A stretch of 64,000 nt of DNA from Chloroflexota bacterium (GTDB lineage Bacteria > Chloroflexota > Limnocylindria > P2-11E): assembly GCA_005889405.1 (NCBI GenBank), contig VBFY01000058.1, positions 1 through 64,000 of the forward strand. Direction: 5' to 3'. This document shows positions 5,098 to 63,072 of this stretch, one piece after another. The position numbers and the translations under genes are program-made. The notes beneath the pieces were generated by a model, which saw nothing but the letters and a program-made list of their open reading frames with translations, did not search any database and was not told where the DNA came from. The stretch's first letter is position 1. Each line of letters starts with the position of its first letter.

Positions 5098-5922
5098 TCA
5101 CGCGCCGCGCGCGATGAGCCGCAACAGGTCGGTCGAGAGATCGCCGCTGCAGACCTCCTCGACCGGGCCGCGCATCTGGATCTCGCCGTCCGGCGCGATC
5201 GTGATGCCGAGCTGACCGCCGGGCATGGTGATCGTGACATCGCCTTCGATGAGCCCCTTGTGCCGGGATGCGGCGGCGACGGCGCAGCTCGACGAGCCTG
5301 ACGCGAGCGTGTAGCCCGCGCCGCGTTCCCAGATCTCGATCTTCACCTCCTGCCGCGAGACGACCTGCGCGAACTGCACGTTCGTGCGGTTCGGGAACGC
5401 TGGGTGATGCTCGATCTTCGGACCGAGGCCGCGCACATCCACCTTCGACACGTCGGGGACGATGACGACACAATGCGGGTTGCCGACGTTCACCGACGTC
5501 ACGGCGAGGCGCTTCCCGTCGACCTCGATCGCGTCGAGCTTGTCGATGTGCGCCTTGCCCATGTCGACTGTGATCTGGCTTACGCGTCCGGCTTCGTGCT
5601 CGAGGAGGCAGGTCACCCGTCCGCCGAGCGTGTGCAGCGTGAAGCGTTCTTTCGACGTGTAGCCATGTTCGCGGAGGAACTTCGCGAAGATTCGCACGCC
5701 GTTCCCGCTCTTCTCGGCCTCGCTGCCGTCGGGATTCAGGATGCGGACGCCGAAGTCTGCGCCGTCGCCCGATGAGACGACGAGGATGCCGTCCGAGCCG
5801 ACACCCCGATTGCGGTCGCAGATCAACCTCACCGCTTCGGGCGTGAGCGCGAAGGGTAGGTCCTTTGGATCCATGACGAGGTAGTCGTTGCCGAGGCCGT
5901 GCGACTTCACATAGTGCGGCAT
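5098..5922 (-). CDS. dapF: diaminopimelate epimerase family protein lacking both catalytic cysteines
   Basis: A 274-residue protein with the whole DapF fold: SHGLGNDYLVMD at the N-terminus, the NPDGSEAEKSGNGVRIF block, GNPHCVV, and WERGAGYTLASGSSSCAVAA. DapF normally interconverts LL- and meso-diaminopimelate with two cysteines. Here the first position is Ser72 (EKSGNG in place of xxCGNG) and the second is Ser208 (LASGSS in place of LACGTG). Everything around them is conserved, so the gene is not decayed. It may use a different substrate or mechanism. ATG 5922 matches the family's N-terminus; the longer frame to 6111 is an unconserved Arg/Pro-rich extension. It is the second gene of an operon with the upstream metallophosphoesterase-like gene (40-base gap) and is divergent from the aminotransferase-LysA operon. 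Confidence 0.85.
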   Translation of the reverse strand: MPHYVKSHGLGNDYLVMDPKDLPFALTPEAVRLICDRNRGVGSDGILVVSSGDGADFGVRILNPDGSEAEKSGNGVRIFAKFLREHGYTSKERFTLHTLGGRVTCLLEHEAGRVSQITVDMGKAHIDKLDAIEVDGKRLAVTSVNVGNPHCVVIVPDVSKVDVRGLGPKIEHHPAFPNRTNVQFAQVVSRQEVKIEIWERGAGYTLASGSSSCAVAAASRHKGLIEGDVTITMPGGQLGITIAPDGEIQMRGPVEEVCSGDLSTDLLRLIARGA

Positions 5923-5962: not shown

Positions 5963-6703
5963 TCACATCTTCTGCGCGGGACCGGAGCCGGTCTGCGGCG
6001 TGCCCTTGGCGATCTCCGCCAGGTGGATGACCTCGAAGGCCGCGGCGCCGCCCGAGAGGTCGAGCACGCCCACAGTTCCGAGCGCACGCTGGCCCGCCAC
6101 GCGTGCGGCACGGCCCTTCGGGTAGGTCGGGCTGCCGGGATTCACGAAGAGGACGCCGTCCTTCAGGATCGCCGCTTCGCGATGCGTGCTCGCGAATGCG
6201 ACGATATCGACCGGGCCGCCGAACTTCTCGCGAAGGACCGCCTTCGTGTCGATGCCTTCGAACACCGGCAACCCCGCGGCCGGCGCGGAGACGGCTGGGC
6301 CCGGCTCCTTCTCGAGGTTGTGGATCGCGCCGACACGGAAGCCGCCGGCCTCGATGACGCGGGCGAGCCCCGCGACCCGCTCGCCGTCCGCGGGCGTGAC
6401 GTACGTGCCGCCGGCCTTCTTCCCCGAGTAGTCGCGCACGGCGAGGACCGGCGCGACAGCCGATAGTCGGTCGAGGACGCCGCGCCCGAGGGTGTCGTCG
6501 CGCACCCCCATGTGACCGAGGTGCACGATAAGGTCGCAGCCCGCGCCGCGGAACGCCTCGAGCACCTCGGCCGGCAGGTCGCTGCCGTCGTCGCGCGTGT
6601 TGTGGTCGTCGGAGAGGAATCCGATGCGGGTCGCCCTCACGCGCGTGACCGGTGCGATCGCTTCAGCCTGCGCGAGCTCGGTCGTGTTGGTGGCGATGGC
6701 CAT
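5963..6703 (-). CDS. YfcE/MJ0936-like metallophosphoesterase homologue with altered metal site
   Basis: A 246-residue protein of the calcineurin-like phosphoesterase superfamily, YfcE/MJ0936 branch. Visible are the first strand with D-x-H (FLSDDHN, D32 and H34), VHLGHMG where GD is usual, AVRDYSG where GNCD is usual, and STHREAA in place of GHTH, followed by the intact family motif NPGSPTYPKGR. Three metal-ligand positions are thus changed (Asp to His, Asn to Tyr, His to Ser), so ordinary two-metal phosphodiesterase activity is uncertain. The start has a strong GGAGG site 7 bases upstream. It is the first gene of the minus-strand operon with the DapF homologue; the shared intergenic region with the plus-strand operon carries the GATATC palindrome. 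Confidence 0.75.
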   Translation of the reverse strand: MAIATNTTELAQAEAIAPVTRVRATRIGFLSDDHNTRDDGSDLPAEVLEAFRGAGCDLIVHLGHMGVRDDTLGRGVLDRLSAVAPVLAVRDYSGKKAGGTYVTPADGERVAGLARVIEAGGFRVGAIHNLEKEPGPAVSAPAAGLPVFEGIDTKAVLREKFGGPVDIVAFASTHREAAILKDGVLFVNPGSPTYPKGRAARVAGQRALGTVGVLDLSGGAAAFEVIHLAEIAKGTPQTGSGPAQKM

Positions 6704-6747
6704 GGTGAAACCTCCGGATGCATAGTTCGCGGCTGCTTACGGTAGCC

Positions 6748-6766
6748 GATAACGACAACGGATATC
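6748..6766. promoter_or_regulatory. 19-bp GATATC palindrome between divergent operons
   Basis: GATAACG-ACAAC-GGATATC. The site lies midway between the start of the metallophosphoesterase-like gene (6703) and GTG 6808 of the aminotransferase. The right arm overlaps a plausible -10 hexamer (TATCAT, 6763-6768) for the rightward operon. It is one of the copies of a motif shared across the window. Confidence 0.65.
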
Positions 6767-6807
6767 ATGGTGCTCCCAACCCGGCGCAGAAGGAAAAAGG
6801 AGGGCCC

Positions 6808-8130
6808 GTGGACGTCGCCTCGCCGCCGGTCTCCCCGCCCGCCTCCGCCCGCCGGCCGAAGGTCGCACCGGCGCTGCCGGGGCCGCGCGCCGCTGCGCTC
6901 GTCGCGCGCGACGCTGAGGCACTCTCGACCAGCTTCACTCGCCCGTACCCGCTCGCGATGGCGAGAGGTGAGGGGCTCTGGATTACGGACATCGACGGCA
7001 ACGAGTTCCTCGACTTCACCGCGGGTATCGCGGTCACGTCGACCGGCCACTCCCACCCGAAGGTCGTCGCCGCGATCGAGGAGCAGGTACGGAAGTTCCT
7101 GCACATGTCCGGAACCGACTTCTACTACGAGCCCGAAGTCCGTCTCGCCGAACGGCTCCAGGCGAGCGCGCCGGTGAAGGCGCCGGCGCGCGTGTTCTTC
7201 GCGAACTCCGGCGCCGAGACGATCGAGGGCGCCATCAAGCTCGCGCGCTGGGCGACGCGGCGCCCGCATTTCCTGGCGTTCACCGGCGCGTTCCACGGCC
7301 GCACCATGGGCGCGCTGTCGCTTACCGGCAGCAAGGCCGTGCAACGCGACGGCTTCGCGCCGCTCGTGCCGGGTGTCTTCCACGTCCCGTATCCGTCCGC
7401 GAGCCATGGCGGACCGTCGAGCGACGAGGTCTTCGAGCGCATCGATCAGCTGTTCCACACCCTCGCGAAGCCCGACAGCTTCGCCGCGATCTTCGTCGAG
7501 CCGATCCAGGGCGAAGGCGGGTACATCGTGCCACCCGACGACTTCCTCCCGCGTCTCCGCGCGCTCGCGTCGGAGCACGGGATCCTCCTCGTCGTAGACG
7601 AGATCCAGAGCGGCATGGGCCGGACGGGGAAGCTCTACGCGATCGAGCACTGGGGCGTCACCGCGGACATCGTCGTGCTCGCGAAGGGCATCGCCTCGGG
7701 ATTGCCGCTCGGCGCGATCATCGGGGGCGGCGGTGTGATGTCCTGGCCGCCAGGGGCGCACGGCAGCACGTTCGGCGGGAACCCCGTCTCCTGCGCCGCC
7801 GCGCTCGCAACGCTCGACCTCATCGAGGGCGGCCTGCAGGAGAACGCCGCGACGCGTGGGGTACAGCTTCGCGAGGGGCTCGGCGCGCTGGCTTCGCGCC
7901 ACGCCGCGATCACCGACGTCCGCGGGAAGGGCCTGATGGTGGCGTTCGAGGTCCGCACCCCGGCGCTCACGAACGCGGTCATGCAGCAGGCGTTCCGGCG
8001 GGGGCTCCTCGTGCTGCCCACCGGCGCACGTGCGATCCGTCTCTCGCCGGCGCTCACCGTATCGTCCGATGAGATCGCCGTCGCGCTCGAAATCCTCGAC
8101 GCGTCCTGCGCCGCAGCCGCGGCGGCCTGA
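6808..8130 (+). CDS. class III PLP aminotransferase (GabT/ArgD/Lat-like)
   Basis: A 440-residue fold-type I aminotransferase that moves an omega-amino group to 2-oxoglutarate or pyruvate. Visible are ANSGAETIEGAIKLAR (phosphate-binding), GAFHGRTMGALSLTGS, the PLP aspartate in LLVVDEIQSGMGRTGK, the PLP lysine in VLAKGIASGLPLGA and HGSTFGGNPVSCAAA. GTG 6808 is preferred because AGGAGG lies four bases upstream; the ATG at 6718 would place the operator inside the gene. It leads a nine-gene operon. The next gene, an ALDH7-type dehydrogenase, suggests the product is a semialdehyde (for example from lysine, ornithine or GABA). ArgD-like members of this class can also act as succinyl-DAP aminotransferase, relevant given LysA downstream. 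Confidence 0.9.
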   Translation: MDVASPPVSPPASARRPKVAPALPGPRAAALVARDAEALSTSFTRPYPLAMARGEGLWITDIDGNEFLDFTAGIAVTSTGHSHPKVVAAIEEQVRKFLHMSGTDFYYEPEVRLAERLQASAPVKAPARVFFANSGAETIEGAIKLARWATRRPHFLAFTGAFHGRTMGALSLTGSKAVQRDGFAPLVPGVFHVPYPSASHGGPSSDEVFERIDQLFHTLAKPDSFAAIFVEPIQGEGGYIVPPDDFLPRLRALASEHGILLVVDEIQSGMGRTGKLYAIEHWGVTADIVVLAKGIASGLPLGAIIGGGGVMSWPPGAHGSTFGGNPVSCAAALATLDLIEGGLQENAATRGVQLREGLGALASRHAAITDVRGKGLMVAFEVRTPALTNAVMQQAFRRGLLVLPTGARAIRLSPALTVSSDEIAVALEILDASCAAAAAA

Positions 8131-8143
8131 CGAGGGGGACCAG

Positions 8144-9727
8144 ATGACCGTCACCGAGCTCGCACCGACCCACGCCGCGCGCGATGCGCAGGTCGCGAAG
8201 ATCCTCGCCGCGTTCGGCATGACCCCAGGCACCGCGCTCTCCGGCGTCGCCTCGGGCGGACGCTTCGCGCCCGAGCCACGCGGAGCGGTCCTCGAGACCT
8301 TCGATCCGACGACGGGCGTCGTCCTCGCCCGCGTCCGCACGGCCGCGCCCGACGACTACACGGCGGCCGCGAAGGCGGCGCGTGCCGCGTTCGAGCGATG
8401 GCGGCTGGTGCCCGCGCCGCGACGCGGCGAGTTCGTGCGCCTCCTCGGCGAACGGTTCCGCGGGCGCAAGGAGGACCTCGCTCGGCTCATCAGCGTGGAG
8501 AACGGGAAGATCCTCTCGGAGGCTCGCGGCGAGGTCCAGGAAGTCATCGACATGTGCGACCTCGCGGTCGGCCAGTCGCGGCAGCTCTTCGGACGGACCA
8601 TCGTCTCGGAGCGGCCGCAGCACCGCATCGTCGAGAACTGGCATCCGGCCGGCATCGTCGGGATCATCTCCGCCTTCAACTTCCCGGTCGCCGTGCCAGG
8701 CTGGGGCTGGTCGCTCGCCCTTGTCTGCGGCGACAGCGTGCTGTGGAAGCCGTCGAGCCTCACGCCGCTCGCGTCGATCGCGTGTCAGCAACTGTTCCAC
8801 GACGTGACGAACGGCACCGAGGCGGAGGGCGTGTTCTCGCTGGTGAACGGCGCTGGCGCTACCGTGGGCGAGCTGCTCCTCGCCGACGCGCGCGTGCCCC
8901 TCGTGCAGGCGACCGGCTCGTGCGCGCTCGGCGAGCGTGTATCCGCCTCGGTCGGGAAGCGCGGCGCGCGCGCGATCCTCGAGCTCGGCGGCAACAACGC
9001 CGTGGTCGTCCTCGACGACGCGGATCTCGATCAGGCGCTCGCGTCGGTCGTCTTCGGCTCGGTCGGCACCGCCGGCCAGCGCTGCACGACGACGCGCCGG
9101 CTGATCCTCCAACGCGGCATCGCGAAGCGCTTCGTGGATCGCATGCTCGGCGCATACCGCACGGTCCAGATCGGCGATCCGCTCGACGAGCGAACGCTCA
9201 TGGGCCCGCTCATCTCGGCGCAGGCGGTGACGGACTACCGGAACGGCATGGCCGAGATCCGGCGCCAGGGCGGCGACGTGCTCTGTGGCGACGTGGTCCT
9301 CGATCGACCGGGCTACTTTGTCGCGCCGACGATCGTGCGATCGAGAGCCGACATGCCCGTGGTCGCGGACGAGATCTTCGCGCCGATACTGCACGTCTTC
9401 GAGGTCGAGACGCTCGACGAGGCGATCGCGCTGAACAACGCGGTGCCGCAGGGCCTCTCGAGTGCCATCTTCACACGCGATCTGCACGCGGCCGAGCGCT
9501 GGCTCTCCGCGGCCGGCGCCGACACCGGGCTCGCGAACGTGAACGCCGGGACGAGCGGCGCCGAGATCGGCGGTGCCTTCGGCGGGGAGAAGCTCACCGG
9601 CGGCGGGCGCCAGGCTGGGTCGGACGCGTGGAAGGGATATATGCGCCGGCAGACGAGCACCGTGAACTTCGGGACGCAGGTCGTGCTGGCGCAGGGCGTG
9701 CGGTTCGACGTGGAGGAGAAGCCTTGA
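8144..9727 (+). CDS. aldehyde dehydrogenase, ALDH7 (antiquitin/AmaB) type
   Basis: A 527-residue NAD(P)-dependent aldehyde dehydrogenase. The Rossmann region (IISAFNFPVAVPGWGWSLAL), the glutamate motif (LELGGNNAVVV), the catalytic cysteine (GTAGQRCTTTRRL) and the C-terminal signature (GAEIGGAFGGEKLTGGGR, then GSDAWKGYMRR) are typical of the antiquitin family, which oxidises alpha-aminoadipate semialdehyde/piperideine-6-carboxylate in lysine catabolism. A G-rich ribosome site precedes ATG 8144. It follows the aminotransferase by 13 bases and overlaps the LysA start. Together they fit transamination of a terminal amine followed by oxidation of the semialdehyde. Confidence 0.9.
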   Translation: MTVTELAPTHAARDAQVAKILAAFGMTPGTALSGVASGGRFAPEPRGAVLETFDPTTGVVLARVRTAAPDDYTAAAKAARAAFERWRLVPAPRRGEFVRLLGERFRGRKEDLARLISVENGKILSEARGEVQEVIDMCDLAVGQSRQLFGRTIVSERPQHRIVENWHPAGIVGIISAFNFPVAVPGWGWSLALVCGDSVLWKPSSLTPLASIACQQLFHDVTNGTEAEGVFSLVNGAGATVGELLLADARVPLVQATGSCALGERVSASVGKRGARAILELGGNNAVVVLDDADLDQALASVVFGSVGTAGQRCTTTRRLILQRGIAKRFVDRMLGAYRTVQIGDPLDERTLMGPLISAQAVTDYRNGMAEIRRQGGDVLCGDVVLDRPGYFVAPTIVRSRADMPVVADEIFAPILHVFEVETLDEAIALNNAVPQGLSSAIFTRDLHAAERWLSAAGADTGLANVNAGTSGAEIGGAFGGEKLTGGGRQAGSDAWKGYMRRQTSTVNFGTQVVLAQGVRFDVEEKP

Positions 9728-11070
9728 GCATTCCCGTTATCGCGGCCGGCGACATCTTCCCGGACACGACGAGGATCGACCGCGGCCATCTCGTTGTCGG
9801 CGGCTGCGATATGGCTGACCTCGCGGCGCGCTACGGCACGCCGCTCTATGTGTTCGATGAGGCGAGCATTCTCGCGCGGGCCCGCGGCTATCGTGACGCC
9901 CTCGCGCGCAGCTACCCCGGCGCGTCGATCGTCTGCTACGCCTCGAAGGCCTACTCCGCGCCCTGGATCCTGTCGCTCCTCGCCGACGAGGGCGTCGGCC
10001 TCGACGTCGTCTCCGCCGGCGAGCTCTTCGTCGGTGCGAAGGTCGACTTCCCCCGCGAGCGCATCTACTTCCACGGCAACAACAAGGGCGAGGACGAGCT
10101 GCGCCTCGCGCTCGCGGAGCGCGTCGGGCGCATCGTCGTGGACAACCTCGACGAGGTCCGCCTCCTCGCCCGGCTCGCGGTGGAGCGCGGGGTCCGGCCC
10201 GCGGTCCTGCTCCGGGTCTCGCCCAGCGTCGACGCGCACACGCACGCGCACCTCACGACGGGCAATCTCGACACGAAATTCGGCCTGGGCATCGAGTCGG
10301 GCGCCGCGGCTGAGGGCGTGGGCGCGATCCTTCAGGAGCCTGCGCTCGATCTCCGCGGCTATCACGCGCACATCGGCTCGCAGATCCACGAGATCGAGCC
10401 GTATGAGGCCGAGGTCGAGCGTCTCTTCGCCTTCGCGAAGGAGATGCGTGAGGAGCGGGGCGTCGCGCTGCGTGAGATATCGCCGGGCGGCGGGTTCGGC
10501 GTGCGCTATACGACGGAGGACCCGGCGGTGAAGGCGGCCGACATGATCGGCCGCGTCGGCGCGGTGGTCGCCGCCGCGGCGAAGAAGTTCGGCTTCGACC
10601 GGCTGCCCGAGGTGAGCATCGAGCCGGGGCGGTCGATGGTGGCGAACACCGCGATCGCGCTGTATCGCGTCGGCTCGGTAAAGCGCATCCCGGGTGGACG
10701 CACGTACGTCGCTGTCGACGGCGGGATGGCCGACAACATCCGGCCCACCGCGTATGGGGCGAAGTACTCCGCCGTCCTCGCGGGTCGCGTTGACGACACG
10801 CGTACGACCGACGTCGCGATCGCGGGGAAGTACTGCGAGACCGGCGACATTCTCATCCAGCACATCGAGCTGCCGCTTCCTCGCGTCGGTGAGCTCATCG
10901 CTGTCCCGACCGCGGGGGCGTACCACCTGTCCATGGCGAGCAACTACAACATGGCGCTCCGTCCGGCGGTCGTCGTGGTCGCGAACGGAAGGTCGCGCCT
11001 AGTCCGACGCCGCGAGACGTTCGAGGATCTTCTCGCGCCCGAGATCGCCGGCGAGGCTGTGAAGGCCTGA
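9724..11070 (+). CDS. lysA: diaminopimelate decarboxylase
   Basis: A 448-residue fold-type III PLP decarboxylase that converts meso-diaminopimelate to L-lysine. The PLP lysine K75 sits in CYASKAYSA; also visible are HIGSQI, the glycine-rich phosphate-binding segment SPGGGFGV, EPGRSMVANT, and CETGDIL (Thr for the usual Ser in CESGD). DNIRPTAYGAKYSA is as in LysA rather than ornithine decarboxylases. The start is TTG 9724, overlapping the ALDH stop, with GAGGAG seven bases upstream; the much longer frame upstream is a shadow of the ALDH gene. Its place between a semialdehyde dehydrogenase and acyl-CoA genes, under the same palindrome as the DapF homologue, links it to diaminopimelate or lysine metabolism. 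Confidence 0.9.
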   Translation: MSIPVIAAGDIFPDTTRIDRGHLVVGGCDMADLAARYGTPLYVFDEASILARARGYRDALARSYPGASIVCYASKAYSAPWILSLLADEGVGLDVVSAGELFVGAKVDFPRERIYFHGNNKGEDELRLALAERVGRIVVDNLDEVRLLARLAVERGVRPAVLLRVSPSVDAHTHAHLTTGNLDTKFGLGIESGAAAEGVGAILQEPALDLRGYHAHIGSQIHEIEPYEAEVERLFAFAKEMREERGVALREISPGGGFGVRYTTEDPAVKAADMIGRVGAVVAAAAKKFGFDRLPEVSIEPGRSMVANTAIALYRVGSVKRIPGGRTYVAVDGGMADNIRPTAYGAKYSAVLAGRVDDTRTTDVAIAGKYCETGDILIQHIELPLPRVGELIAVPTAGAYHLSMASNYNMALRPAVVVVANGRSRLVRRRETFEDLLAPEIAGEAVKA

Positions 11071-46290: not shown

Positions 46291-47460
46291 ATGACGACGG
46301 AATCTTCCGCGACCCCTGAAGCCGTCCCTCCGACGGCGCCGACCATCGGCGACTACTCGTATCCCGACTTCTACCGCGCGATGCTCGAGCGCGAGCGGAT
46401 GCAGGTCGCGAAGGACGAGGTCCGCTGGACGGAGAAGCACCGCGAGCCCGAGCGTGCGGTCGACGTCCTCCTGAACTTCGGGTGCAACGTGCGCCAGACC
46501 CCGCACCTGATGCGGGACGCGGTCGCCATCCTGGAGACGCTCAAGGTCGACTTCGCGGCGGTCGCCGGCCAGCAGTTCTGCTGCGGCAAGCCGTACAGCA
46601 ACGCGAAGTTTTCCGACGCGGCGCGGAGCGTCGTGGAGGCGTCGGTGAAGCGGATGGCCTCGTACCGTCCGACGCGGGCGATCCAGTGGTGCTCCGCCTG
46701 CGAGATGCAGTTCCACGACATCGTCATTCCGGAGGTCGGGATCGAGTTCCAGAGCGACGGCTTCGCCGCCTACCTGGTCGAACGGCTCGACGAGATGGGA
46801 TCCGACGTGCCGTGGAAGCGCGATGTGCGGATCAAGGCGGTCGTGCACGGGCACCTCGGTGAGCACGTCGTGCGCGACGCGCACCCGCCGATCGTCATGG
46901 AGCTGCTGCGGCGGATCCCCGGCGTCGAGGTCGTGCGCTATGCCGACACGCCCGCGCTCCAGATCTGCGACAACGCCGGGATCAAGATCCGCAACATCGG
47001 GTCGTCGGAATACCGTGCCGTGCAGGGCGACCTCGAGTCCTACCTCTCCGAGCACGGCGCCGACACGCTCGTCACGATGTACCACAGCTGCACGCGCGAG
47101 CTGAGCAAGTTCGCCAGCGACAGCCTGCGCATCAACCACTACGTCGCCGTGCTCGCGCGCGCCCTCGGCGTGGAGCAGCCAGACCGGTTCTCCGAGTACT
47201 GGCGCCTCGGCGACCCCGCGAAGGTCGTGGCCGCGTCTCGCCGCAACTGGGAATCGTGGGGCTGGACCGAGCCTGAGGCCTACGCGCTCGCGCACAAGTA
47301 CTTCGTGCCCAGCTACGTCGAGGCACCCGAGTGCCCCTGCAACGGGGCGTGCTCGCGGACGGGGGCCGCGTGGCTCAGCGCGAACAAGATCGAGCGTGGG
47401 ACCGCGCTGCCGGTGATCGACCCATTCACCCAGAAGGTCGCGCAGCGCGACCTCGTGTGA
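46291..47460 (+). CDS. HdrB-type CCG-domain iron-sulfur protein without HTH
   Basis: A 389-residue protein with one CCG module of the same spacing as its two paralogues: C65, CC at 97-98 and CSAC at 134-137 (C-x31-CC-x35-C-x2-C). The C-terminal region has YRAVQGDLESYLSEHGADT, the MYHSCTRELSKFASD block and a Cys-rich tail (ECPCNGACS). Unlike the copies at 19374 and 61744 it has no helix-turn-helix; its first 45 residues are a Pro-rich tail and a helix. It likely binds a 4Fe-4S cluster and could be a redox subunit. It is followed 20 bases later by the second Lrp/AsnC gene. Confidence 0.8.
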   Translation: MTTESSATPEAVPPTAPTIGDYSYPDFYRAMLERERMQVAKDEVRWTEKHREPERAVDVLLNFGCNVRQTPHLMRDAVAILETLKVDFAAVAGQQFCCGKPYSNAKFSDAARSVVEASVKRMASYRPTRAIQWCSACEMQFHDIVIPEVGIEFQSDGFAAYLVERLDEMGSDVPWKRDVRIKAVVHGHLGEHVVRDAHPPIVMELLRRIPGVEVVRYADTPALQICDNAGIKIRNIGSSEYRAVQGDLESYLSEHGADTLVTMYHSCTRELSKFASDSLRINHYVAVLARALGVEQPDRFSEYWRLGDPAKVVAASRRNWESWGWTEPEAYALAHKYFVPSYVEAPECPCNGACSRTGAAWLSANKIERGTALPVIDPFTQKVAQRDLV

Positions 47461-48931: not shown

Positions 48932-49855
48932 ATGCGCACACGATTGGTGAACCACGGAGCGGACCCCGTCGCGACGGCGTCGAGCGATCTGGCCAGGGCG
49001 CTGCTCGAGGCCGTCGAGTCCGTGGGGCCGTACCAGCGCGCTTACCCGTTATTGCTGGAGACGCCGCCCGACATGGAGACGGTGCGCATCGAGGATCTCG
49101 TTCGGTCCGATGCGCTTCGCGCCTACGCCGTGCGGGCGGTCGCCGAGTGGTCGCATCATCCGATGGACGAGGATCCGCGCGCCGCGGTGTCGCGTCTCGC
49201 GCGCCGCTACCTCGGATCGGTCGTCACCGCGGTGCTCGCGCCGCTCGCCCACGGCGTCGGCATCGTTATCGACACCGGCCGCGTCCGCGCGATCGTGCAA
49301 CACGACCTGCCGCAGGGGATCGTGCTCGGTACGCATGAGGCGCTCCTGTGCCGCGAGCGTCCGGCGTCGTGGCCGATCGCGGGCATCGAGGTCGCCACGC
49401 TCGACGAGCTGCGCGACCGTGTCTTCGGCGCGCTCCTCGCGCACTGCGCGTGGGTCTTCGATCGCATCGTCGCCGCGATCAAGGTCTCGCCGCAGCTCCT
49501 GTGGAGCACCGCCGCCGAACAGGTCGACGTTCTCTACGACAACGCCGCCGACGGGCCGGCCGCGGCCGTGTTCGCGCGCGCCACGGCGGATCGGGATCGG
49601 CTGCTCCTCGCCGAGACGGTCCCCGGCGTCGCCGGTCCCAATCCGCTGCGCGACCTCCTCTACTGGGAGGCCGCGGCCGAGGGACCCGAGGCTGGCCACG
49701 TGTACCACGTGCGGCGCGTGTGCTGCGCGAACTTCGTGGTCCCCGGCCGGACGCAGGGCTACTGCCGCAACTGCGACCTCATCACGCCGGCGCAGCGCCT
49801 GGAGATGTGGAACGAGTGGCGTGAGTCGGTCCGCGTCCGGGGCAGGGTGAATTGA
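48932..49855 (+). CDS. FhuF-like ferric-siderophore reductase family protein (copy 2)
   Basis: A 307-residue protein with the FhuF C-terminal cluster motif: cysteines 264, 265, 278 and 281 (RRVCCANFVV, then GYCRNCDLI), CC-x12-C-x2-C. It shares with copy 1 the segment VPGVAGPNPLRDLLYW and the pattern of a Trp/Asn-Ala-Ala block (KVSPQLLWSTAAEQ against KVSPRLMWTNAAEW). It probably reduces a bound ferric chelate. Start ATG 48932 follows the annotated frame; GTG 48947 is possible. It is operonic with dapB (2-base gap). Confidence 0.75.
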   Translation: MRTRLVNHGADPVATASSDLARALLEAVESVGPYQRAYPLLLETPPDMETVRIEDLVRSDALRAYAVRAVAEWSHHPMDEDPRAAVSRLARRYLGSVVTAVLAPLAHGVGIVIDTGRVRAIVQHDLPQGIVLGTHEALLCRERPASWPIAGIEVATLDELRDRVFGALLAHCAWVFDRIVAAIKVSPQLLWSTAAEQVDVLYDNAADGPAAAVFARATADRDRLLLAETVPGVAGPNPLRDLLYWEAAAEGPEAGHVYHVRRVCCANFVVPGRTQGYCRNCDLITPAQRLEMWNEWRESVRVRGRVN

Positions 49856-49857
49856 CG

Positions 49858-50658
49858 ATGTCGCTCCGCGTCGGCGTCGTCGGGGCCACGGGGAAGATGG
49901 GGCGCGTCGTCTGTGCGCAGGTCCTCGAGGATCCCGCGCTCGAGCTCGTCGCGGCGGTCGCGCGGTCGAATGCCGGTGCGCCATTCGATACCTACGTCGG
50001 CCGCAGCACCGGCCTCCCGGTGTCCGACCGCCGCGAGGCGCTGCTCGAGGCGCGTGCGCAGGTCGCCGTCGATTTCACGCATCCCGATGCCGTGCTCGCG
50101 AACGCGCGCTGGTACCTCGAGCACGGGCTTCACGCCGTCGTCGGCACCACCGGACTCGGGCCGGACGACGTCGAAGCGCTGCGCGCGCTCGCCGAGAAGA
50201 ACGGGACGAACGCGGTGGTGGCGCCGGACTTCTCGTTCGGCGGCGCGGTGCTGCTGCACATCGCGCGCATCGCCGCGCGGCACTTCCCGTACGTCGAGCT
50301 CCTCGAGACGCACCTGCCGTCGAAGGCCGAAGCGCCCAGCGGCACGACGATGAACACCGCACGCGAGCTCGCGAAGGTGCGGCCATCACCCTCGCCCGTC
50401 GTGACTTCCCGCGAGCTCGCACCCGGCGTGCGAGGCGGCGAGGTCGCGGGCATCCGCGTGCATTCGCTCCGCCTCCCTGGTCCGCCGGGCATCGAGGAGA
50501 TTCGTCTCGCGCGCGCCGGCGAGCTCCTCACGATCAGCCTCGCCGCGTACGACCGTGCCCCCTTCGCGAATGGCGCGGTCCTGGCGATCAAGGCGGTCGC
50601 GTCGCGGCCCGGTCTCACGTACGGTCTCGGGCCGCTCCTCGATCTCGATGGTGACTGA
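49858..50658 (+). CDS. dapB: 4-hydroxy-tetrahydrodipicolinate reductase
   Basis: A 266-residue DapB that reduces HTPA to tetrahydrodipicolinate in diaminopimelate synthesis. The Rossmann motif VGATGKMGR, VDFTHPDAV, GTTGLGPDDVEAL and the substrate motif KAEAPSGTT are present, with the catalytic His retained (ETHLPSK), though the usual second His of HHxxK is Leu. VVAPDFSFGG replaces the usual APNFS, a small departure. ATG 49858 has AGGGTGA upstream; TTG 49852 is an alternative. It lies between a FhuF-like gene and a MmgE/PrpD gene rather than beside dapA, which is unusual. Confidence 0.88.
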   Translation: MSLRVGVVGATGKMGRVVCAQVLEDPALELVAAVARSNAGAPFDTYVGRSTGLPVSDRREALLEARAQVAVDFTHPDAVLANARWYLEHGLHAVVGTTGLGPDDVEALRALAEKNGTNAVVAPDFSFGGAVLLHIARIAARHFPYVELLETHLPSKAEAPSGTTMNTARELAKVRPSPSPVVTSRELAPGVRGGEVAGIRVHSLRLPGPPGIEEIRLARAGELLTISLAAYDRAPFANGAVLAIKAVASRPGLTYGLGPLLDLDGD

Positions 50659-56064: not shown

Positions 56065-56888
56065 CGCTGAACGTGTCGGACCTCGAGTCGATCGTTGTCG
56101 AGGCGGGAACGCGGCCGGACGCGGTGAAGGACCCCGAGGTCCGTCGGGCGATCGAGGAGACGATCGACCGGCTCGACCGTGGCGAGATCCGCGTCGCCGA
56201 GAAGGTCGACGGCGAGTGGAAGGTCAACAGCTGGATGCAGCAGGCCATCGCGCAGTACTTCCGGATCCCGCCGATGGCGACGATCCCCTCCGGGACGTTC
56301 GAGTACCACGACAAGCTCCCGCTGAAGCGTGATCTCGCGCGGCAGGGCATCCGCATGGTGCCCGGCGGGATCATCCGCTACGGCGCGCACCTCGAGGCGG
56401 GCGTCGTCGTGATGCCGGGCTTCATCAACATCGGCGCGTACGTCGGGAGCGGGACCCTCGTGGACACGTGGGCCACGGTCGGCAGCTGCGGCCAAGTCGG
56501 TCGCAATGTCCACCTCGCGGGTGGCGCCGGTATCGGCGGCGTCCTCGAACCCGCCGGCTCGAAACCGGTGATCGTCGAGGACAACGTCTTCATCGGCTCA
56601 CGCTGCATTCTCGTCGAGGGCGTCTTGGTGGAGGAGGGCGCGGTCCTCGCGGCGAACGTGTCGCTCACCGGGTCGACGCACATCATCGACGTGACGAAGG
56701 AAGAGCCGATCACCTACAAGGGCCGCGTGCCGCCGCGCTCGATCGTCGTTCCCGGGACGCGGTCGCGGAAGTTCCCCGGCGGCGAATTCCAGATCGCCTG
56801 CGCGCTCATCATCGGTGAGCGCTCGGCGCGGACCGAGGGCAAGGTCTCGCTGATGGAAGCGGCGCGCGAATTCGGCGTGAGCCTGTGA
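56061..56888 (+). CDS. dapD: tetrahydrodipicolinate N-succinyltransferase
   Basis: A 275-residue left-handed beta-helix acyltransferase. SWMQQAIAQYFRIPPMATI, the DapD signature VRMVPGGxxRxGA-type block (RMVPGGIIRYGAHLEAGV), PGFINIGAYVGSGTLVDTW and hexapeptide repeats (VHLAGGAGIGGVLEP) identify DapD, the succinylase-branch enzyme of diaminopimelate synthesis. It is embedded between a CoA-transferase and a racemase in an operon starting with a ThDP enzyme, an odd place for a housekeeping dap gene. Confidence 0.92.
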   Translation: MTLNVSDLESIVVEAGTRPDAVKDPEVRRAIEETIDRLDRGEIRVAEKVDGEWKVNSWMQQAIAQYFRIPPMATIPSGTFEYHDKLPLKRDLARQGIRMVPGGIIRYGAHLEAGVVVMPGFINIGAYVGSGTLVDTWATVGSCGQVGRNVHLAGGAGIGGVLEPAGSKPVIVEDNVFIGSRCILVEGVLVEEGAVLAANVSLTGSTHIIDVTKEEPITYKGRVPPRSIVVPGTRSRKFPGGEFQIACALIIGERSARTEGKVSLMEAAREFGVSL

Positions 56889-57622
56889 CGCGGCTCGTCC
56901 GTGGCGGCAAGGCTGCCTACGGCCAGGACGTCGGGATCCTCATGATGGACAACACCTTCGCGCGGCTCCCCGGAGACATCGGTAACGCGATGACGTTCGA
57001 GTTCCCGGTCCAGTTTCGCGTGATCGACGGGTCGACCAATGAGCGCATCGTGTGGGAGCGCGATCGCGCGCTTCTCGCCCCGTACGTCGGCGCGGCGCAG
57101 GAGCTCGAGCGTTCGGGTGTCCGCGCGATCACGACCTCCTGCGGCTTCCTCGCGATGTTCCAGCCCGAGCTCGCCGCCAGCGTACACGTCCCGCTCTTCA
57201 CCTCGAGCCTCCTCCTCGTGCCGCTCGTGAAGCGGATGATCCGTCCTGACCAGCGCGTCGGGATCATCACCGCCGACTCGAGCGCGCTTGACGAGACGCA
57301 CTTCAATGCCTGCGGCTGGTCGGCCACCGAGATCCCCGTCGCGCTCGAGGGGATGCAGGCGCGCTCGGCCTTCTGGGACGCCTACCCGAAGAACGCGCTG
57401 GAGTACGACGTCGATGCGGTCGCCGCGGACATGCGCGACGCCGCGGTCGCGCTCCTGCGCGAGCATCCCGATGTCGGTGCCATCGTCCTCGAGTGCACGA
57501 ACATGGCTCCCTACGCGCACGTGGTGCAGGAGGCGACCGGCCTGCCGGTGTTCGACGTGCAGACGCTGACGAATCTCGTGTACGAGGCGACGCACCGCGT
57601 CCCGTATGGCGACGGCCGATGA
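56885..57622 (+). CDS. Asp/Glu/hydantoin racemase family protein (paralogue)
   Basis: A 245-residue paralogue of the protein at 16101: DVGILMMDNTFARLPGDIGN, AITTSCGFLAMFQPEL (first Cys), VLECTNMAPYAHVV (second Cys). Start GTG 56885 overlaps the dapD stop by four bases. The pairing of dapD with this gene here, and of lysA with its paralogue in the other operon, suggests that both racemase-like proteins act on related dicarboxylic or amino compounds. Confidence 0.83.
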   Translation: MTRLVRGGKAAYGQDVGILMMDNTFARLPGDIGNAMTFEFPVQFRVIDGSTNERIVWERDRALLAPYVGAAQELERSGVRAITTSCGFLAMFQPELAASVHVPLFTSSLLLVPLVKRMIRPDQRVGIITADSSALDETHFNACGWSATEIPVALEGMQARSAFWDAYPKNALEYDVDAVAADMRDAAVALLREHPDVGAIVLECTNMAPYAHVVQEATGLPVFDVQTLTNLVYEATHRVPYGDGR

Positions 57623-61743: not shown

Positions 61744-63072
61744 TCAGGCGGGTCGCACCGCTCCGCTCAGCACGTCGACCGAGATGAGTTGCTCCTGACA
61801 CCCGCCCTCGCCCCCGCACGCGCAGCGTGACGGGCCGTCCGCATAGGCAGGATCGAAGATCGCCTGAGCGAGCGTCCGCGCACGCTCCTCGCGCATCCCC
61901 CAGGAGCTCCACATCGGTCGCGTCTGTTCGAGGATCGCTTCCGGATCGCCGAGCTTGCACGCGGCCTGGTAGCGGTCCGGGCTCGCGCACCCAAGGGCGT
62001 CCGCAAGCAGCGATATCGGATGCCGGACCGCGAGGCGATCGCTGGAGAACCGCGACCACCACTGCTGGCCGGTGTGGTGCGTCGCGCTCATCGTGTCCGC
62101 ACCTCGCGCCGCGAACAGATCGGCCAGCCTCTCGCGTCGCCGCTCCACGTCGTGGCGCGAGAGTGCCGGGTCGTTCACGATCGTCTCCGCGTTCCCGTGC
62201 CCGGCGATGCGGTCGATCTCCGGGTCGACGAAGCCGACCACTTCGACTCCGGGGATCATCGCGAGAACGCGCGCGCACGTCTCGGTGGCCTCGACATGGA
62301 CGGGGCTGCCGCCGGCCCGCAGCACCAGCACCTTCGCCCCGACCTCGCGCTGCCAGGGCACGCGCTCGCCGAGCTTGCGCAGGGTTTGCTCGAGGAGCGT
62401 GTACATCTGCACGTTCGCGGGGAGCTGTGTGCCGAGCAGCCGCTCGCGGCGCTCGATCATGCTGAAGGTGTTCTGGCAGTTCGTGCACATGTGCGCGGTG
62501 AGCGAGGCTCCCCATGCGACGCTGCGCGCCACCGACGCCGCGTGCATGCGCTCTGCCTGTTTCAGGTCTTTGTAGTGGCGGTAGTACGTCCCGCAGCAGA
62601 AGAGGCGGCCGGCACCCGCGGCGAAGTTGACGCCGAGCGCCCGCAGCACGCCCACCGTATCGAGGATCAGGTGAGGCGTGTGCTGCGGGCCGCAGCTCAT
62701 GTTCACGAACACGTCAACCGCACCGTCGGGTGCGACGTTGCGCTCGATCCACACGGTCTCTTCCTTCGACACGAGGAGGTGGCCGGCATCCTCGAGGTCA
62801 CCCCAGAACCGCGCGTAGTTCGGCCGCTCGCGCGGGACGTCCGCGCCGATGTTCGCGAGCCACGCGTCGTACAAGCGCTGCGGCGCGATCCCAGCGAGCG
62901 CCGCGCAGATGCGCTCGAGCTCGTCGAGCGTCGGCAGGATGTCGCCGCCCTCGATGTGCGCGTACCACGAGGGCTCGATGCCAGCCAGGGACGCCAGCCG
63001 CTCGGGGGCGTCGAACCCGGCCCTGGTCCGCTCCTGCGCCAGGTGGTTGGGGTAGGGAACCGTCGCGGTCAT
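61744..63072 (-). CDS. HTH-CCG fusion protein (paralogue)
   Basis: A 442-residue paralogue of the protein at 19374. Residues 8-65 form the helical DNA-binding-like domain (LASLAGIEPSWYAHIEGGD, then ELERICAALAG). The CCG module has C127, CC at 159-160 and CTNC at 196-199 (C-x31-CC-x35-C-x2-C). The Cys-rich tail is CACGGEGGCQEQ followed by LISVDVLSG. Two copies with the same domain order show that the fusion is not an assembly accident. A redox- or iron-sensing regulator is possible; no GATATC palindrome lies at its own start. Confidence 0.8.
   Translation of the reverse strand: MTATVPYPNHLAQERTRAGFDAPERLASLAGIEPSWYAHIEGGDILPTLDELERICAALAGIAPQRLYDAWLANIGADVPRERPNYARFWGDLEDAGHLLVSKEETVWIERNVAPDGAVDVFVNMSCGPQHTPHLILDTVGVLRALGVNFAAGAGRLFCCGTYYRHYKDLKQAERMHAASVARSVAWGASLTAHMCTNCQNTFSMIERRERLLGTQLPANVQMYTLLEQTLRKLGERVPWQREVGAKVLVLRAGGSPVHVEATETCARVLAMIPGVEVVGFVDPEIDRIAGHGNAETIVNDPALSRHDVERRRERLADLFAARGADTMSATHHTGQQWWSRFSSDRLAVRHPISLLADALGCASPDRYQAACKLGDPEAILEQTRPMWSSWGMREERARTLAQAIFDPAYADGPSRCACGGEGGCQEQLISVDVLSGAVRPA

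Follow-up and report, generated by a model that had tools for sequence, protein, structure and literature searches.

A DapF homologue of Chloroflexota with serine at both catalytic cysteine positions, a probable diaminopimelate epimerase

In cofactor-independent amino-acid epimerases the pair of cysteine thiols is regarded as essential, and this view is the basis of annotation, of inhibitor design (aziridino-DAP, iodoacetamide) and of redox-switch models. Cysteine-to-serine mutants of PddB have under 0.1% activity, with Mycobacterium tuberculosis DapF cited likewise (PMC8225329), and those of HisR are strongly reduced (PMC11602996). In H. influenzae DapF, serine has been engineered singly at each of the two positions (C73S and C217S; 2q9h, 2q9j). 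Natural catalytic serines in place of cysteine occur in the proline racemase superfamily, which has a DapF-like fold: the Ser/Cys 4-hydroxyproline epimerase B9JQV3 carries out two-base proton transfer, and the Ser/Thr dehydratase t3HypD (B9K4G4) uses a serine positioned by the i+3 residue (PMC4113996). The DapF of Corynebacterium glutamicum undergoes redox inactivation through a disulfide between its two cysteines (PMC5296763). Neither a natural Ser/Ser DapF nor any other natural Ser/Ser epimerase was found in our literature searches.

The window analyzed here is a stretch of 64,000 nucleotides from contig VBFY01000058.1 (C32) of a Chloroflexota MAG (G000; 3.05 Mb, 96% complete, 4.6% contamination). 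On its minus strand lies an intact dapF-like frame that begins MPHYVKSHGLGNDY from an ATG preceded by a GAGGGA-like ribosome site (Table 1). Ser72 lies within NPDGSEAEKSGNGVRIFAKF and Ser208 within WERGAGYTLASGSSSCAVAAA, and alignment places them at the cysteines of the EMCGNG and LACGTGAC motifs of solved DapFs. Direct reading and this alignment confirmed both the coordinates and the two serines (in EKSGNG and LASGSS) given in the first-pass annotation. The protein scored above the cut-off of the DapF equivalog model TIGR00652 and matched PF01678 (DAP_epimerase) with 208.2 bits, compared with 27.9 bits for the Pro_racemase model PF05544, which was not the best match. Its AF2 model (pLDDT 91.3) had DapF 9mro as the top PDB match (TM 0.86), and the best 26 PDB matches were all DapF or O-ureidoserine racemase; PhzF, at ranks 27 and below with 17% identity, is not the closest fold. 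The protein is like DapF (TIGR00652/PF01678; 9mro, 1gqz, 5m47) in fold, domain layout, DAP ligands, profile score and DAP-pathway neighbors, but it has serine at both acid/base positions. On its sequence, we file the gene as a variant of DapF and not as a canonical member, because the Cys/Cys pair, one of the defining features of DapF, is absent from positions 72 and 208.

Table 1. Features of the Ser/Ser dapF locus and DAP-pathway genes of the window contig
Feature	Position	Strand	Remarks
Ser/Ser DapF homologue	5098..5922	-	274 aa; Ser72 and Ser208 at the catalytic Cys positions; TIGR00652 249 bits, cut-off 114.65
Ser72 codon, AGC in EKSGNG	5707..5709	-	position counted from start 5922
Ser208 codon, TCA in LASGSSSC	5299..5301	-	position counted from start 5922
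Metallophosphoesterase (PF12850)	5963..6703	-	upstream of dapF, same strand
Class-III aminotransferase	6718..8130	+	PRK05769 family, 574 bits, cut-off 552
Aldehyde dehydrogenase, closest to L-piperidine-6-carboxylate dehydrogenase	8144..9727	+	672.8 bits, just under cut-off 730
lysA, diaminopimelate decarboxylase	9727..11070	+	TIGR01048 426 bits, cut-off 297.9
dapB	49852..50658	+	TIGR00036 175 bits, cut-off 122
dapD	56079..56888	+	NF008808 313.8 bits, cut-off 204
Second dapB	C32:74880-75443		window contig
dapL	C32:81121-82269		window contig

Our survey covered 400 genomes from the phylum and 177 from the class and gave 108 fully alignable DapF sequences, nearly all from Chloroflexota. The catalytic pair was Cys/Cys in 69 of these, Ser/Ser in 34, Ser/Cys in four and Cys/Ser in one. 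When a tree was built with the catalytic and neighboring columns masked, 33 of the 34 Ser/Ser sequences formed one clade (support 100/94), which answers in the affirmative the question of whether such homologues group together. The remaining Ser/Ser sequence (G128), the four Ser/Cys sequences and the Cys/Ser sequence fell outside this clade, each apart among Cys/Cys sequences. The Ser/Cys (G215, G296, G262 and G406) and Cys/Ser (G170) proteins are half-replaced DapFs in otherwise Cys/Cys lineages, with separate origins.

The columns that separate the main clade from the Cys/Cys set cluster at the active site. K/R71, I78, Q183 and S211 are present in 33/33 members of the clade and in 0/69 Cys/Cys sequences, in which position 71 is typically M or A, position 78 is Cys in 67, position 183 is Glu in 59 and position 211 is Gly in all 69; Y14 likewise occurs in 33/33 of the clade versus 9/69. 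S211 is also present in the separate Cys/Ser protein of G170 and absent from the separate Ser/Ser protein of G128. These residues, invariant together with both serines, accord with the subfamily with conserved surroundings that the first-pass annotation proposed, and the Ser/Ser subfamily is real and old and is linked to the DAP pathway in several families. In 34/34 Ser/Ser genes, Ser72 is encoded by AGY and Ser208 by TCN, with all four third bases used at the latter, which indicates two old substitutions that have been retained since. Pairwise dN/dS (NG86) within the window's group and its nearest relative was 0.13-0.40, a rough figure as dS is high.

The MAG carries a second dapF copy (C9:1456-2265) that is 77% identical to the window copy and also Ser/Ser; a search for a Cys/Cys DapF elsewhere in this genome found none. 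Wrong binning of contig C32 was considered and rejected, as there was no sign of a foreign family and its tetranucleotide correlation was 0.63-0.76 to the genome's own contigs versus 0.57-0.62 to other families; by composition, C32 could also be a contig of a close relative of this genome.

In Anabaena DapF, the distal end of DAP is held by N66, N164, N197, E215 and R216, and the side chain of T226 binds the reacting carboxylate (PMC12039745). The five distal ligands correspond to N63, N148, N181, E199 and R200 of the window protein, and all five are kept in 35/37 Ser/Ser sequences; the position of T226 is Ser or Thr in Ser/Ser proteins. The DapF-like racemases HisR, CntK, PddB and O-ureidoserine racemase retain the Cys/Cys pair and have other amino acids as substrates, whereas the set of DAP ligands is intact in the window protein.

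We examined the gene context of the Ser-bearing DapFs. In the window, lysA lies about 4 kb from dapF, and dapB and dapD lie 44-51 kb away. In the window's family, lysA adjoins Ser/Ser dapF in G001, G002, G004, G008 and G013 and at the second copy in G000, and in G020 it stands beside dapF, cut by the contig end. The G013 dapF (C109:32030-32718; L043 about 9979-10728), directly upstream of lysA, is split over two frames by a frameshift or assembly error. In other families, dapF overlaps dapL in G214 (NF006756 591 bits, cut-off 507), G127 has miaA, dapF and then a convergent dapL, and G169 has an operon of dapF, dapC (TIGR03537 493 bits, cut-off 453.6), dapD (332.5 bits, cut-off 204) and hflX. 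The separate Ser-bearing DapFs of G128, G170, G215 and G262 directly adjoin dapL on the same strand. On the first-pass annotation's question of whether dap neighbors are kept, the Ser/Ser gene has dapL, dapC-dapD or lysA beside it in these relatives.

Further genes of the window contig were noted. An Asp/Glu/hydantoin racemase-like gene (PF01177; window 56885-57622) has a 4-base overlap with the end of dapD and is a possible alternative racemase in the organism. FhuF-like proteins (PF06276; one over the cut-off at 36.8 bits and one below it at 22.1 bits) accompany both dapB genes (window 48932-50658, L037 9840-11767). Similar-looking genes at window 46291-47460 and 61744-63072 and at L037 4805-6259, all on one contig, encode a cysteine-rich CCG domain (PF02754) in two cases and an HTH_31 domain in the third.

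Twelve Ser/Ser genomes (G214, G127, G238, G253, G169, G184, G209, G236, G111, G320, G377 and G073) combine dapB and lysA with either dapL or dapD, and in none of them does Ddh or LysX reach the cut-off; in G127 lysA is divided between two frames, and in G253 a contig end truncates it. Bypass by meso-DAP dehydrogenase (Ddh) found no support, with none over the cut-off in 36 genomes. In 39 genomes searched with PF01678, the only further full-length DapF was the second Ser/Ser copy of G000, and an extra DapF fragment in G209 is also Ser/Ser. Therefore, if lysine is synthesized by the DAP route in the twelve, the Ser/Ser protein is the sole recognized epimerase candidate. Against its own proposal, the first-pass annotation had set the absence of a canonical DapF combined with full complementation by this gene; the absence is what we found.

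The window's family differs in its lysine genes. LysX, of the aminoadipate route, is present in all eight of its Ser/Ser genomes, and within the family G000 alone has dapB, dapD and dapL, all on the window contig; in the siblings G001-G004, G008, G020 and G013, lysX is present and dapB, dapD and dapL were not found. G054 likewise has a Ser/Ser DapF and lysX, and neither lysA nor another DAP gene was found in it. Ser/Ser dapF is therefore not always linked to DAP synthesis. Wherever MurE could be read, in genomes of the Ser type and of the Cys type alike, its specificity motif is EDPR or DDPx instead of DNPR, which suggests that DAP may not be the cell-wall residue; since it does not distinguish the two types, the motif was dropped as an explanation of the Ser type.

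The sequence, the clade, the gene context, the sole-copy status, the conserved ligands and the fold model are what is shown, and from these we infer with moderate confidence that the window protein is a DAP epimerase of DapF fold in which a serine pair replaces the cysteine thiol/thiolate pair, Ser72 and Ser208 acting as acid and base. LL- or meso-DAP would be bound as in ordinary DapF: the five residues named above would hold its distal amino acid, and G73/N74 and G209/S210, each at the N-terminus of a helix, its reacting carboxylate. Ser72 and Ser208 would move the alpha proton between faces. Three influences probably adjust the acidity of these serines, namely the N-termini of the two helices, a positive charge close by (Lys/Arg71, accompanied by the replacement of Glu183 with Gln) and Ser211; K71, Q183 and S211 may each have a role in catalysis. 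Ser211 is at i+3 from Ser208, the spacing seen in B9K4G4; however, B9JQV3 has serine at one position only, and the substrates of both enzymes are hydroxyprolines, whereas profile scores assign the window protein to DapF. The H. influenzae mutants carry one serine at a time, whereas the natural protein has both, with co-varying neighbors. The first-pass annotation had suggested another mechanism or another substrate. The former, a serine acid/base mechanism, is likely, yet unproven because of the near inactivity of the Cys-to-Ser mutants of relatives. The latter is unlikely for window-like members, because the DAP ligands are kept, the neighbors are dapL, dapC-dapD or lysA, and there is no second DapF. 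In Chloroflexota families without lysX and Ddh, the Ser/Ser enzyme would provide LysA with the meso-DAP needed for lysine; in the window's family, where lysX is present, it may act with the adjacent LysA, either as a second route to lysine or to salvage DAP.

The salvage function, which involves the same epimerase chemistry and is compatible with our preferred explanation, is a serious possibility that falls somewhat short of an even chance. Here dapF-lysA of the window's family would serve the salvage or breakdown of peptidoglycan-derived DAP, from LL-DAP through meso-DAP and lysine to aminoadipate, the last steps being carried out by the neighboring aminotransferase and piperideine-6-carboxylate (P6C) dehydrogenase. 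The gene order of the window (aminotransferase, P6C dehydrogenase, lysA, acyl-CoA dehydrogenase, CaiB-type CoA transferase) fits such a pathway, although the first two of these genes do not adjoin the dapF copies of the siblings. Siblings with lysX and without dapB, dapD and dapL have nevertheless kept Ser/Ser dapF beside lysA, and the MurE motif is EDPR rather than DNPR; in contrast, two dapB genes, dapD and dapL are all present on the window contig itself.

Alternatively, the Ser/Ser protein might bind DAP and no longer epimerize it, with meso-DAP coming from another racemase or with LysA accepting LL-DAP. LysA has the same fold as decarboxylases of L-amino acids, the racemase-like gene that overlaps dapD in the window could provide the missing activity, and changing Cys to Ser all but abolishes activity in relatives. 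We consider this improbable, given the dN/dS values with both serines invariant, the conserved operon position in dapF-dapC-dapD, and the repeated origin of serine replacements, several of them beside dapL; moreover, among the local stretches examined, the racemase-like gene was not found at other loci.

An equally doubtful reading, that the protein derives from DapF but epimerizes or dehydrates a different amino acid and that its DAP neighbors are historical, draws on wider sampling beyond Chloroflexota by plasmid, phage and IMG/VR scans. Two Ser/Ser DapFs are plasmid-borne, in Agrobacterium vitis (pRvVAT039a) and Streptomyces sp. NBC_01216, and lie in a common gene cluster (L296 2177-8113 and L298 4317-10015, respectively) that encodes an iron-containing redox enzyme, a 2OG-Fe dioxygenase, the Ser/Ser DapF, a molybdopterin oxidoreductase and an aldo/keto reductase. 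This cluster resembles an uncharacterized pathway for an amino-acid-derived metabolite. A further Ser/Ser DapF (L294, 2923-3768) is at the edge of a clostridial-looking provirus contig, and in a quick FastTree it and the A. vitis protein branch within the Ser/Ser clade (support 0.954). At L294 1-1879, a serine recombinase stands beside an open reading frame whose start resembles sporulation sigma factor G, a possible skin-like element at the provirus edge. Both plasmid proteins have lost the ligand N148 and, judging from this, probably act on a substrate other than DAP. The existence of these distant relatives, the hydroxyproline substrates of the same-fold Ser/Thr and Ser/Cys members (PMC4113996) and G054, in which DAP genes were not found, would all agree with a different amino acid as substrate. 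However, all five DAP ligands are retained in window-like members, and dapL, dapC-dapD or lysA adjoin in separate families with no other DapF; the loss of N148 in the plasmid proteins, set against its retention in the window protein, strengthens the case that the latter acts on DAP.

Finally, a sequencing error or pseudogene, for which no support was found beyond the one frameshifted sibling copy in G013, can be set aside with near certainty, as the same serine pair recurs in intact frames and fixed codon classes in 34 genes of many assemblies (34/108 sequences), and the clade, the second, 77% identical copy and the dN/dS values bear out the first-pass view that this is not decay.

We judge the chances to be about even that an old and large lineage carries out the 1,1-proton transfer on LL-DAP by two serines without a thiol, aided by the co-evolved K/R71, Q183 and S211, that serine has also replaced catalytic cysteine in further separate DapF lineages, and that the cysteine pair is not required for the DapF reaction. 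If so, a serine-only sole DapF in DAP operons would show a much weaker acid doing the same proton transfer. Having two serines and no cysteine pair, such an enzyme could not form the inactivating disulfide and would be immune to this form of inactivation; as a speculation, escape from disulfide inactivation may have driven the change from cysteine to serine. The Cys/Cys, Ser/Cys, Cys/Ser and Ser/Ser DapFs constitute a ready natural panel. If the Ser/Ser protein is not an epimerase, the lysine pathway would be closed in some unexpected way in these bacteria, so that both outcomes would be informative.
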